DNA from: Methanoculleus formosensis
GTDB lineage: Archaea; Halobacteriota; Methanomicrobia; Methanomicrobiales; Methanoculleaceae
Length of the DNA stretch: 64,000 nt
Reading direction: 5' to 3'
Assembly (NCBI RefSeq): GCF_025384765.1
Contig: NZ_VHLL01000008.1
Coordinates: 1 to 64,000 of the forward strand
The notes under the pieces were generated by a model that made no database searches, had not been told where the DNA came from, and saw only the letters and a program-made list of their open reading frames with translations. The position numbers and the translations under genes were made by a program. Below, one piece after another: positions 7,192 through 56,164 of the stretch. The stretch's first letter is position 1; each line of letters opens with the position of its first letter.

Positions 7192-8055
7192 ATGCGGACG
7201 CTTGCGGCGGTCCCCTGCCTCGACGAAGAGGTTGCGATCGGCTCCGTCGTCCTGCGGGCCCGGCAGCACGTCGACGAAGTCCTGGTGATAGACGACGGCT
7301 GTACGGACGACACCGCGAAGGTCGCCCGGGACGCGGGGGCGACCGTCATCTCGCACGGGACCCAGAAGGGGAAAGGACAGGGGATCAAGAGCGCTCTACG
7401 GTATGCGGTCGATCACGACTACGACTGCCTGGTCTTCATGGACGGCGACGGCCAGCACGACCCCGGGGAGATACCTCTCCTGGTCGAGCAGATCCGCGCC
7501 GATGCCGCCGATCTCGTCATCGGATTTCGAACCTTCGACCAGATGCCGCTTTACCGGCGGTTCGGCCGGGCGGTGCTTGATGTCGTCTCCAGCAACGGGA
7601 GTGCGATAACCGACTCGCAGTGCGGCTTTCGGGCGCTGAACAGAAAGACCATGGAATCGATGATCGGAACGCTCCGGATGGATGATTTCTCGACTGAATC
7701 GGAGATGCTCCAGATCGCCCAGGAGCGACACCTGCGTATCGGGGAGACGCCGATAAACTGCAAGTACGGGGACTTCGACACATCCACAAAGAACCCCCTA
7801 TCTCATGGAATGGAGGTGCTCGGATCGATATTCTGGCTTGCCGTGGAGAGAAAGCCGCTTCTCCACATCGGCCTGCCCGGGCTTGCCGCGATGCTTGTCG
7901 GGATCTTCTTCTTCCTCCAGTTTCTGCGGGGGTTCAGCGAGACCGGGGTCGTCCCGATCGAACAGGGCATGCTTGCATCGCTCCTCCTGATCCCCGGGGC
8001 GGTCGCACTGATGCTGGGCCTGGCGCTTGCCCTCGTTTTACGGGTGCGGAAGTGA
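7192..8055 (+). CDS. GT2 family glycosyltransferase (dolichol-phosphate sugar synthase-like)
   Basis: A GT-A fold enzyme of about 287 residues. It starts with AAVPCLDEE and has VIDDGCTDDT (residues 33-41). The metal-binding MDGDGQHD lies near residue 83 and QCGFRALN near residue 145. Two hydrophobic segments at the C-terminus suggest membrane anchoring. This matches polyprenyl/dolichyl-phosphate glycosyltransferases that charge a lipid carrier for surface-glycan assembly. The ATG at 7192 places the first motif at the N-terminus. GTG codons at 7141 and 7171 are possible alternatives. The next genes, wecB and wecC, make a UDP-sugar, so a role in N-glycan or polysaccharide synthesis is likely. 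Confidence 0.85.
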   Translation: MRTLAAVPCLDEEVAIGSVVLRARQHVDEVLVIDDGCTDDTAKVARDAGATVISHGTQKGKGQGIKSALRYAVDHDYDCLVFMDGDGQHDPGEIPLLVEQIRADAADLVIGFRTFDQMPLYRRFGRAVLDVVSSNGSAITDSQCGFRALNRKTMESMIGTLRMDDFSTESEMLQIAQERHLRIGETPINCKYGDFDTSTKNPLSHGMEVLGSIFWLAVERKPLLHIGLPGLAAMLVGIFFFLQFLRGFSETGVVPIEQGMLASLLLIPGAVALMLGLALALVLRVRK

Positions 8056-53473: not shown

Positions 53474-54742
53474 ATGTGGATCGGGATCGACGATACGGAC
53501 TCGCCTGCCGGGATGTGCACCACCTACCTCGGCGCGGTGCTGGTGCAGCGGCTCGCGCGGGCGGGACTCCCCGTCGTCGGCGCCCGCCTGGTCAGGCTGA
53601 ACCCGAACGTCATCCACAAGACCCGGGGGAACGCGGCGATCGCCATCGAGGCGGTCGGCGATTCGGAGACGGGCTTCGCGCTCGCCACCGCCTGCGTCGA
53701 AGAACTCGCGGAGTTCGACGACGAAAAGACCAACCCCGGCGTGGTGGTCTCAAGCGTCCGCCCGCCGCCGGACTTCTATTACGCGGCGCTCCGGGACTAC
53801 TGCACCGTGGACGAGGCCGTTCTAGTGCTCGAAGCCGCAGGGGCGCTCTACCGGGGTTACAAGAACCGGCGCGGGCTCATCGGCGCAACGGCGGCGATAG
53901 CGAGCGATTTTTGTGACCGGACCTACGAGCTCCTCGCCTACCGGAAGCGCCCGGCGTGGGGCACCCCACGGCAGGTGGATGCGGCGAGCCTCTTTCACGC
54001 CGAGGAGGAGACCTACCCTCATACCTGGGACACGGTCGACCGGGAGAACGGCGTGGTGGTCGGGGTGCCCCATACCCCCGACCCCGTCCTCTTCGGCATC
54101 CGGGGGGAGAGCCCCGCATGGGTGAAGGAGGCACGCTCTTTTGTCCGCTCCGAAGAGCCCGCCTGCGAGCAGGTCTACGCCACCAACCAGGGAACCGACG
54201 CTCACCTGATACCGGGAGCGGCCGGAACCCTCCTGGAGGGGCGGTCGTACCTCGTGCGCGGCACGGTCGCGACGGCCGCGGCCACCGGGCCCGGCGGCCA
54301 CGTCTCGTTTCTTCTCGCTGACTGCGGCGCCGAACTGCGCTGTATGGCCTACGAACCGACCAAGGGGTTCAGGAGCGTCGTGCGGGCGCTCGTCCCGGGG
54401 GACGTGGTGGCCGCGGCCGGGAGTTACAAAGGCGGGAGCCTCAACCTCGAGAGGCTCGGGGTCGCCCGCCTCGCCGACGCGGTCCGGGTTCGCCCGCCGG
54501 TCTGCCCGGCCTGCAAAAAGCGGATGACGAGCGCCGGAACCGGCAAAGGCTACAAGTGCAGGATCTGTGGCGAGCGCAGCCGCGAGCCCGAGACCGAGCG
54601 AATCGAGCGGCTGCTCCGGCCCGGGTGGTATGAGGTCCCCCCCACCGCCCGCCGGCACCTCGCGCGGCCGCTGGTGCGCGGTGTTCCTGCATGGGAAGAG
54701 GCCATGCTCCGGCCGGACCGGGGATGCACAGGGAATATATAG
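53474..54742 (+). CDS. tiaS: tRNA(Ile2) 2-agmatinylcytidine synthetase TiaS
   Basis: A 422-residue TiaS, which attaches agmatine to C34 of tRNA-Ile2 so that it reads AUA. The opening MWIGIDDTDSPAGMCTTY carries the kinase-like motif of the family. The middle has NPNVIHKTRGNAAIAIE and YKNRRGLIGATAAIAS, then an OB-fold and a zinc ribbon CPACKKR...CRICGERS near residues 342-366. This enzyme is specific to archaea. Confidence 0.94.
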   Translation: MWIGIDDTDSPAGMCTTYLGAVLVQRLARAGLPVVGARLVRLNPNVIHKTRGNAAIAIEAVGDSETGFALATACVEELAEFDDEKTNPGVVVSSVRPPPDFYYAALRDYCTVDEAVLVLEAAGALYRGYKNRRGLIGATAAIASDFCDRTYELLAYRKRPAWGTPRQVDAASLFHAEEETYPHTWDTVDRENGVVVGVPHTPDPVLFGIRGESPAWVKEARSFVRSEEPACEQVYATNQGTDAHLIPGAAGTLLEGRSYLVRGTVATAAATGPGGHVSFLLADCGAELRCMAYEPTKGFRSVVRALVPGDVVAAAGSYKGGSLNLERLGVARLADAVRVRPPVCPACKKRMTSAGTGKGYKCRICGERSREPETERIERLLRPGWYEVPPTARRHLARPLVRGVPAWEEAMLRPDRGCTGNI

Positions 54743-54795
54743 CGGCAGCGAAGTCGGGGGGATGGCCCGTCAATGAAATGAACTTTACAAAAAAA

Positions 54796-54803
54796 GATAT
54801 ATA
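54796..54803 (+). promoter_or_regulatory. TATA box of the candidate ncRNA
   Basis: The element gatatata follows an A-rich run (caaaaaaa, from 54788) that could serve as a BRE-like upstream box. Transcription would start near 54824-54828. The region before it is the 3' end of tiaS. Confidence 0.6.
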
Positions 54804-54824
54804 ACATAGTAGAGTTAACTTCTT

Positions 54825-55135
54825 TCTGGTGATCCCGTGCCGACTATCGGCCGCGAATATGTGCGGGCCCGGGACTCGATCCGCCCGCATCGGTGCCACC
54901 CCTGACGGGCGGTCTCCTGTGGCAGACCGTAGATGTTCGCGGTCGAGTATGCACGGAACGAAGGTAACCCTCTGGAAACCTCTCCGTTTCCGGCCCGAAA
55001 GTCCGCTCTATCGAGAGTTGGTCCGGACATACCGGACCCCGACACGGTGGGACGAGCGGGATCATCCCGTGTCGAATAACAACCAGTCATCCCCTGTCTG
55101 GCAGCGGGACCCGGTTACCGGGCCCGCATTTTTTT
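54825..55135 (+). ncRNA. candidate structured non-coding RNA, about 310 nt, family unknown
   Basis: The region has its own TATA box and ends in a hairpin plus seven T residues. It has several perfect stems. GGTCCGG/CCGGACC (55020-55026 with 55032-55038, loop ACATA). CGACACGG/CCGTGTCG (55040-55047 with 55067-55074). A GGAAAC/GTTTCC stem extended by two pairs (54972-54979 with 54986-54993). GGTCT/AGACC (54911-54915 with 54924-54928). A long-range TGCGGGCCCGG/CCGGGCCCGCA (54862-54872 with 55118-55128) could close the whole molecule. A 102-codon frame runs through it, but its stop lies beyond the T run. I could not find SRP RNA or RNase P RNA signatures. Confidence 0.6.
55104..55135 (+). terminator. 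hairpin and T7 terminator of the ncRNA
   Basis: GCGGG-A-CCCGG (55104-55114) pairs with CCGGGCCCGC (55118-55127), with one bulged A and a 3-nt loop. Seven T residues follow at 55129-55135. The right arm can also pair with the 5' end of the RNA, so the two structures compete. Confidence 0.65.
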
Positions 55136-55228
55136 AGAAGATCCTCTTCATCCGGCGGCCCCCGGAAGAGACGATCCATTATTCTGGATGAATGCCAATA
55201 TCTCGTACAGAATTGGTGTAACAGTATC

Positions 55229-56164
55229 ATGACCTTCAAATACGGGGAAGCGGTTCAGCAGGCGCAGGTTCGCCCCGGGATGACGGTCGGCGAACTCGTC
55301 GACGAACTCGGGAAAGCCGGCGCCTACAACGGGGGGTCGCTCTGGCAGGCGGTCAACATCTACGAGCGGATGCTGCGCGACGACGAAGCACTGAAGTTCT
55401 TCGGCCTCTCGGGCGCGATGGTCCCCGGCGGCATGGGAGGCATCGTCGCCGACCTCATAGGGCGGGGACATATCGATGTGCTCGTCTCGACGGGGGCGAA
55501 CCTCACCCACGACGTCATCGAGGCGATCGGGTGCCACCACTACCACGGGACCGCCCAGGTCTCCGATGCCGAACTCTGCGAGGAGGGAGTCAACCGGATC
55601 TACGACATCTTCCTCCCGAACGAGGCGTTCATCCGGTTCGAGGAGTTCCTGCAGGACGTCTACTCGTCCCTCCCGGAGGGCTCGACGGTCTCGATATCCG
55701 AGCTCCTCGGCCGGCTCGGGGAGAGGCTCGATACCGGGATCCTTGCCGCGGCGGCAAAGGCCGGGGTGCCGATCTACTGCCCGGCCATCCAGGACTCGAT
55801 GATCGGGCTGCAGTACTGGCTCTTTTCGCAGACACACAAGGTCACGGTCAGCGCGTTTGCCGATATGCCCGGGCTGCTCGACCGGTGCTTCGAGGCCGAA
55901 CGGGCCGGAGCGATCCTGGTCGGCGGGGGCGTCCCGAAGAACTACATCCTGCAGAGCAAGCTTATGACCGAGAGCGGGTTCGACTACGCGGTGCAGCTCA
56001 CCGGCGACCGGCCGGACCTCGGCGGCCTCTCGGGGGCGACGCTCGAAGAGGCCCGGTCGTGGGGCAAACTCACCGGGGAGGCCACCGCTGCGACGGTCTA
56101 CGGCGACGCGACGATCAACCTGCCGCTCCTCGTTGCGGCAACCCTCGAGAGGCTGGAACGATGA
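55229..56164 (+). CDS. dys: deoxyhypusine synthase
   Basis: A 311-residue enzyme that transfers a butylamine group from spermidine to a lysine of aIF5A. It carries VPGGMGGIVADLIGRGHID and TGANLTHDVIEAIGCHHY near residue 90, both typical of the family, and the C-terminal EARSWGKLTGEATAATVYGD, where Lys280 is the probable catalytic residue. It overlaps pyrF by 4 bp (ATGA), so they are co-translated. The candidate ncRNA lies just upstream. Confidence 0.93.
   Translation: MTFKYGEAVQQAQVRPGMTVGELVDELGKAGAYNGGSLWQAVNIYERMLRDDEALKFFGLSGAMVPGGMGGIVADLIGRGHIDVLVSTGANLTHDVIEAIGCHHYHGTAQVSDAELCEEGVNRIYDIFLPNEAFIRFEEFLQDVYSSLPEGSTVSISELLGRLGERLDTGILAAAAKAGVPIYCPAIQDSMIGLQYWLFSQTHKVTVSAFADMPGLLDRCFEAERAGAILVGGGVPKNYILQSKLMTESGFDYAVQLTGDRPDLGGLSGATLEEARSWGKLTGEATAATVYGDATINLPLLVAATLERLER

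Follow-up and report, generated by a model that had tools for sequence, protein, structure and literature searches.

In Methanosarcina mazei, the small RNA sRNA41 is reported to repress translation inside a polycistronic mRNA, and sRNA154, which is conserved at the level of the genus, consists of stable stem-loops and carries one loop directed against ribosome-binding sites, is reported to stabilise some targets and block others (PMC5867862). In bacteria, trans-acting sRNAs with C-rich apical loops seed on G-rich Shine-Dalgarno sequences. That an archaeal sRNA can mask a ribosome-binding site is already known; the RNA family, the pseudoknotted body and the target described below appear new.

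The Methanoculleus RNA resembles sRNA154 in its genus-level conservation, its stable stem-loops and its single anti-ribosome-binding-site loop, and differs from it in that sRNA154 acts on nitrogen-fixation targets, is described as having two stem-loops, and can stabilise as well as block. sRNA41 belongs to a different order and acts on a different operon; unlike sRNA41, the Methanoculleus RNA has no Rfam match, is about 308 nt long and is predicted to form a pseudoknot, although we made no sequence comparison between the two. The bacterial RNAs with C-rich loops are usually much shorter, and we claim no homology to them. Our RNA shares with sRNA41 and sRNA154 the criteria of a transcription unit, here predicted from sequence, and a conserved, predicted accessible loop complementary to a distant ribosome-binding site; its effect on translation is inferred.

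A conserved non-coding RNA gene between tiaS and dys

The RNA gene (54828..55135; all features of the window, the whole 64,000-nucleotide stretch that was analysed, are on the forward strand) lies in the gap between tiaS (53474-54742) and the deoxyhypusine synthase gene dys (55229-56164), both identities being confirmed with family models. The original prediction had placed an undescribed RNA here without giving it a function, and this reading is supported by the absence of an Rfam match and by a conserved, syntenic and non-coding locus. Rfam covariance models (4227 families, Rfam 15) gave no match at the gathering threshold in the whole window, and the sole match at E <= 10 between 54500 and 55500 was an irrelevant one inside dys. 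The claim that the RNA is neither RNase P RNA (RF00373) nor archaeal SRP RNA (RF01857), which are likewise structured archaeal RNAs of about 300 nt, also held: neither model matches the locus, and the genuine genes are separate in this genome, each on another contig (204 and 174 bits, respectively).

We also rejected a protein-coding gene. The tiaS-dys gap of relatives, which the original prediction had proposed to align, shows that its 102-codon frame is not conserved, since nearly all of the 32 homologues interrupt or shift it, while the stems P7 and P8 described below are maintained with double changes in a sister genus. No frame in the six-frame check was open in more than 5 of the 32 homologues, and there was no Pfam match. 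The open-access literature that we searched contained no description of a non-coding RNA, sRNA or RNA motif from Methanoculleus, and no small RNA for formylmethanofuran dehydrogenase. We conclude that the locus holds an undescribed structured non-coding RNA, which is shown here as a conserved gene and whose transcription is inferred.

The gene is single-copy and occurs in 34 of the 35 Methanoculleus genomes; wherever its neighbours were checked, they were tiaS and dys. One of these copies, in genome G016, is truncated by a contig end; in G012, the one genome without the RNA, tiaS and dys are separated by only a short gap. The sister genus (g14; genomes G097 and G129) carries a homologue between the same two genes that is shorter, at about 265 nt, and the record Methanoculleus sp. 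FWC-SCC1 (L178), which groups with g14, has a shorter homologue too. Covariance models found no convincing homologue elsewhere in the family (40 genomes), nor did models R1 and R2 in the rest of the order (232 genomes); weak order-level matches (E 0.02-1) were taken as chance, since they fell outside the tiaS-dys gap where checked.

The RNA has its own promoter and terminator signals. The promoter AACTTTACAAAAAAAGATATATAA (54781..54804) consists of a BRE-like A-rich stretch, with the conserved A-rich element TTTACAAAAAAAGA just 5' of the TATA box, and of the TATA box itself, TATATAA at 54798-54804, which bears out the box originally called at 54796-54803. Upstream regions were read for 31 homologues, and in these the promoter is near-identical and its spacing to the RNA start almost constant. 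The TATA box is about 27 nt 5' of a conserved GG at 54828, and from this spacing we infer the predicted 5' end. Between the two lies a GTTAAC palindrome (54814-54819) that is conserved throughout the genus and might be a promoter-proximal element. At the other end, the terminator (55104..55135) is a hairpin, GCGGGACCCGG-UUA-CCGGGCCCGC at 55104-55127, then a T7 run at 55129-55135 within which the RNA is predicted to end. A simple terminator scan did not flag this hairpin and T run (55104-55135). The hairpin is nonetheless as originally described, and it is retained in the genus despite varied sequence, several double changes included. Based on these sequence signals only, we consider the RNA an independent transcription unit; transcription itself is inferred.

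Structure of the RNA

The predicted minimum free energy of the RNA is -148.2 kcal/mol (z = -5.3), and none of 100 shuffled sequences folded as well. The conserved order is promoter, 5' GGUGAUCCCGUGCCGACUAU, a variable 5' domain, a central hairpin, P7, P8 and terminator. The central hairpin segment GCCCUCYGGAWGCUC is common to Methanoculleus and the sister genus, and outside the P8 loop the Methanoculleus homologues vary by up to about 27 %.

The 5' end GGUGAUCCCG (54828..54837) pairs with CGGGAUCAUC (55057..55066) to form P1. The long-range pairing between the two ends, originally given as 11 bp, thus holds; the window copy has 10 bp. The nine pairs at the core of P1 (54828-54836 with 55058-55066) are formed in 34 of 34 homologues, compared with 43-56 % for slid controls. 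Pair-keeping changes on one side occur at two positions (G.U to A-U, G.U to G-C and U-A to U.G); no pair of P1 has changed on both sides among the 34 homologues. What the original prediction missed is that the 3' partner sits in the loop of a perfectly kept hairpin, P7, formed by CGACACGG (55040..55047) and CCGUGUCG (55067..55074). P1 is therefore part of a pseudoknot or one of a pair of alternatives, and not a simple closing stem. P7 is maintained in the sister genus through A-U to G-C, C-G to U-G and A-U to G-U changes.

The other short-range stems held in part: P7, P8 and the terminator are kept, and those of the first half are not all conserved. P2, for instance, pairs CCGUGC (54835..54840), which overlaps the last bases of P1, with a GCACGG downstream in the 5' domain. 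It is paired in 31 of 31 Methanoculleus sequences (alifold) with one-sided G-C/G-U changes, yet the 5' domain, P2 included, is rearranged in the sister genus.

Counts restricted to the helices gave seven pairs with double changes, a number reached in 2 of 500 shuffles. An all-pairs covariation test against a tree-based null, run on the Methanoculleus sequences only, found no significant pair; covariation by itself is thus no proof of the structure. The structural claim rests instead on the changes in the sister genus, the helix-restricted counts and the fold energy. For the sister genus we relied on a model-based alignment (A4), as the MAFFT alignment (A2) misplaced the gap in the P7 loop.

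Complementarity between the P8 loop and the fwdD start

P8, CCAGUC[AUCCCCU]GUCUGG with the loop in brackets (55083..55101), is the most conserved hairpin of the RNA and the proposed target-binding element. The loop AUCCCCU is invariant in Methanoculleus, its inner bases are predicted to be unpaired (mean probability 0.82-0.90), and the stem survives double changes in the sister genus. There, a T run directly follows P8 on the 3' side, suggesting that P8 probably doubles as the terminator.

The segment UCAUCCCCUGUCU (55087..55099) is complementary to the ribosome-binding site of a distant gene. We searched 11 genomes for one pattern only, the P8 complement ACAGGGGATGA, and did not rank targets genome-wide. 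Of the 27 matches, 10 were the RNA gene itself. Of the remaining 17, six were in sense orientation at a single orthologous position, immediately before the ATG of a gene whose translation reads MAIRVNLITGRTIQQG..., and 11 showed no homology to each other. We attribute to chance a further match to the target core within the window (7376-7385), which is located in a coding gene. The shared gene is fwdD, encoding subunit D of the tungsten formylmethanofuran dehydrogenase (best model NF042908, below its strict cut-off), preceded by an hdrA-type gene and mvhD and followed by fwdB and fwdA, as identified by NCBIfam and Pfam. The site AGACAGGGGAUGA occupies the short A/T-rich stretch between mvhD and fwdD in this cluster of one orientation; in the window's own genome (G000) it is on the minus strand of contig C1 at about 592002-591993. 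At the fwdD start of that genome (L267 3986-4006), an in-frame upstream ATG reads through the site (MDRGYIT-MAIRV), a frame in which most relatives have a TGA stop.

We examined the start regions of all orthologues that could be placed. In Methanoculleus, 30 of the 31 have the core ACAGGGGAU ahead of fwdD; its position was measured in 28, and in each it is -17 or -16 relative to the start codon. Perfect complementarity to the RNA of the same genome extends over 10-15 nt (13-15 nt in many genomes), and the predicted contact spans -17 to about -5, over the Shine-Dalgarno sequence. The latter is weak and degenerate in Methanoculleus (GGGGAUGA), whereas several other families have GGAGGUGA-like sites. 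The fwdD orthologues in other families have ordinary ribosome-binding sites without a match to ACAGGGGAU, and the site is absent from fwdD paralogues with a readable start region.

Duplexes between each RNA and its own site average -26.8 kcal/mol, compared with -15.3 +/- 3.6 for background windows. When the RNA was scanned in 16-nt windows, the strongest pairing with the fwdD start came from P8, and the observed mean was not reached in any of 300 shuffles. The window's own genome has a weaker duplex, with 10 Watson-Crick pairs and one G.U at -22.8 kcal/mol, and 2.4 % of background windows equal it. The second-best pairing with the fwdD site comes from the P7 copy of a near-repeat shared by the 3' half of P7 (UCAUCCCGUGUC, 55062-55073) and P8 (UCAUCCCCUGUC, 55087-55098), suggesting that the RNA may carry two target-binding modules.

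RNA and site have changed together. Relative to Methanoculleus (RNA CAUCCCCUGUCU, site AGACAGGGGAUG), the P8 loop and the fwdD site of the sister genus are altered jointly at two positions: G129 has the RNA CAUCCCCUGUU with the site AACAGGGGAUG, and G097 the RNA CAUCUCCUGUU with the site AACAGGAGAUG. When partners were exchanged, the G129 RNA paired better with its own site than with that of G097 (-21.1 versus -14.2), and the G097 RNA showed a slight preference for its own (-19.0 versus -18.1). Sites of the same type nevertheless occur without the RNA, namely AGACAGGGGAU in G012 (L230) and AACAGGAGAUG in G119 (L240), a member of a related genus. Such a site can thus exist where the RNA does not, and a chance match may account for one of the two joint changes; G012 and G119 may have lost the RNA recently, or something else may read their site. 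Conversely, G024 has an intact RNA and no fwdD orthologue that we could find, which could reflect an assembly gap or hint at further targets.

In G016, an assembly gap of the size of P7/P8 splits the RNA copy (L019, G016:C17 end; L091, G016:C41 start). Its 5' part carries the unusual changes GGTGATCTCG, and its fwdD site AGACAGAGGCTG (L222) is the only degenerate one in the genus. RNA and site may be decaying jointly in this genome, or it may be a further compensatory case; a P8 reading CAGCCUCUGUCU would make it the third.

Proposed function and alternative explanations

The sequences show a non-coding gene that is conserved together with its potential to pair, a complementary site that is likewise conserved, and changes in the RNA that are matched by changes in the target. 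The complementarity of the P8 loop to the fwdD ribosome-binding site suggests that the RNA is probably regulatory in the pathway from CO2 to methane. We consider that it likely acts in trans as an sRNA, binding the ribosome-binding site of fwdD and probably repressing translation; transcription, binding and repression are all inferred, in the absence of expression or binding data. The P8 loop would seed on AGGGGAU and then extend into GUCU while P8 opens, such that the loop and the adjoining 3' strand of its stem would pair with the site. The duplex would mask the weak Shine-Dalgarno sequence, most likely lowering translation of fwdD and of the genes behind it. We infer that hdrA, mvhD, fwdD, fwdB and fwdA share a single polycistronic mRNA. 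Lowered translation of fwdDBA would, we propose, make formylmethanofuran dehydrogenase tunable apart from the upstream hydrogenase and heterodisulfide-reductase subunits.

A contact of 10-15 nt alone leaves the body of about 300 nt unexplained. The pseudoknotted P1/P7 body may serve as a scaffold. The P7 loop contains GGGAU, which could pair with AUCCC of the P8 loop or with the 5' end of the RNA, and P1 may prevent the former pairing. A switch between forms, raised by the original prediction and here inferred to be mediated by P1, is accordingly possible and not shown. A bolder reading, which we regard as unlikely, is that of a trans-acting, riboswitch-like sensor whose P1-P7 body, responsive to a ligand or protein, sets the P8 loop either sequestered by the P7 GGGAU or free to silence fwdD; if true, the CO2-fixing step of methanogenesis would be directly coupled to a cellular signal.

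The main alternative to repression, which we hold to be considerably less likely, keeps the same RNA and site. Pairing may stabilise or process the mRNA between mvhD and fwdD, thereby raising or uncoupling fwd expression. The position of the site in an A/T-rich intergenic stretch of a one-orientation cluster favours this possibility, as does the reported ability of M. mazei sRNA154 to stabilise some of its targets (PMC5867862). However, the predicted contact covers the Shine-Dalgarno sequence, and a block of initiation is the simplest effect.

It is doubtful that the RNA is a structural, catalytic or RNP-scaffold RNA unrelated to fwdD whose C-rich loop matches a G-rich site by coincidence. Its size, strong fold and conserved parts unrelated to the target (P1/P7 and the central hairpin segment) would fit such a role. 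Against it, the match exceeds the Shine-Dalgarno core in many genomes and is found at a single orthologous site only, and the sister genus shows joint changes of loop and site.

The position of the RNA upstream of dys, in the same orientation and ending in a terminator, suggested a cis-acting leader or riboswitch-like attenuator of that gene. We rejected this explanation as very improbable: a GNAT acetyltransferase gene on the opposite strand separates the RNA from dys in the sister genus (G129), and G012 keeps the conserved segment adjoining dys although the RNA is gone. A ribosome decoy or anti-Shine-Dalgarno mimic, in which the 5' end GGUGAUCC would pair with the 16S rRNA 3' end CTGGATCACCTCCT (8 nt, exact complement), is all but ruled out: P1 takes up this whole 5' stretch in every homologue, and in G020 and G017 the variant GAUGAUCC pairs less well with 16S rRNA while replacing a G.U of P1 by A-U.

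Few archaeal sRNAs have a known target. The RNA and target named here, and the exact pairing proposed between them, can be tested by compensatory mutation, and G012, without the RNA gene, and G016, with a degenerate site and a copy cut by an assembly gap, offer natural variants. Formylmethanofuran dehydrogenase catalyses the first step of hydrogenotrophic methanogenesis from CO2, and it is this step that the RNA would regulate in Methanoculleus, a genus common in biogas reactors and sediments.
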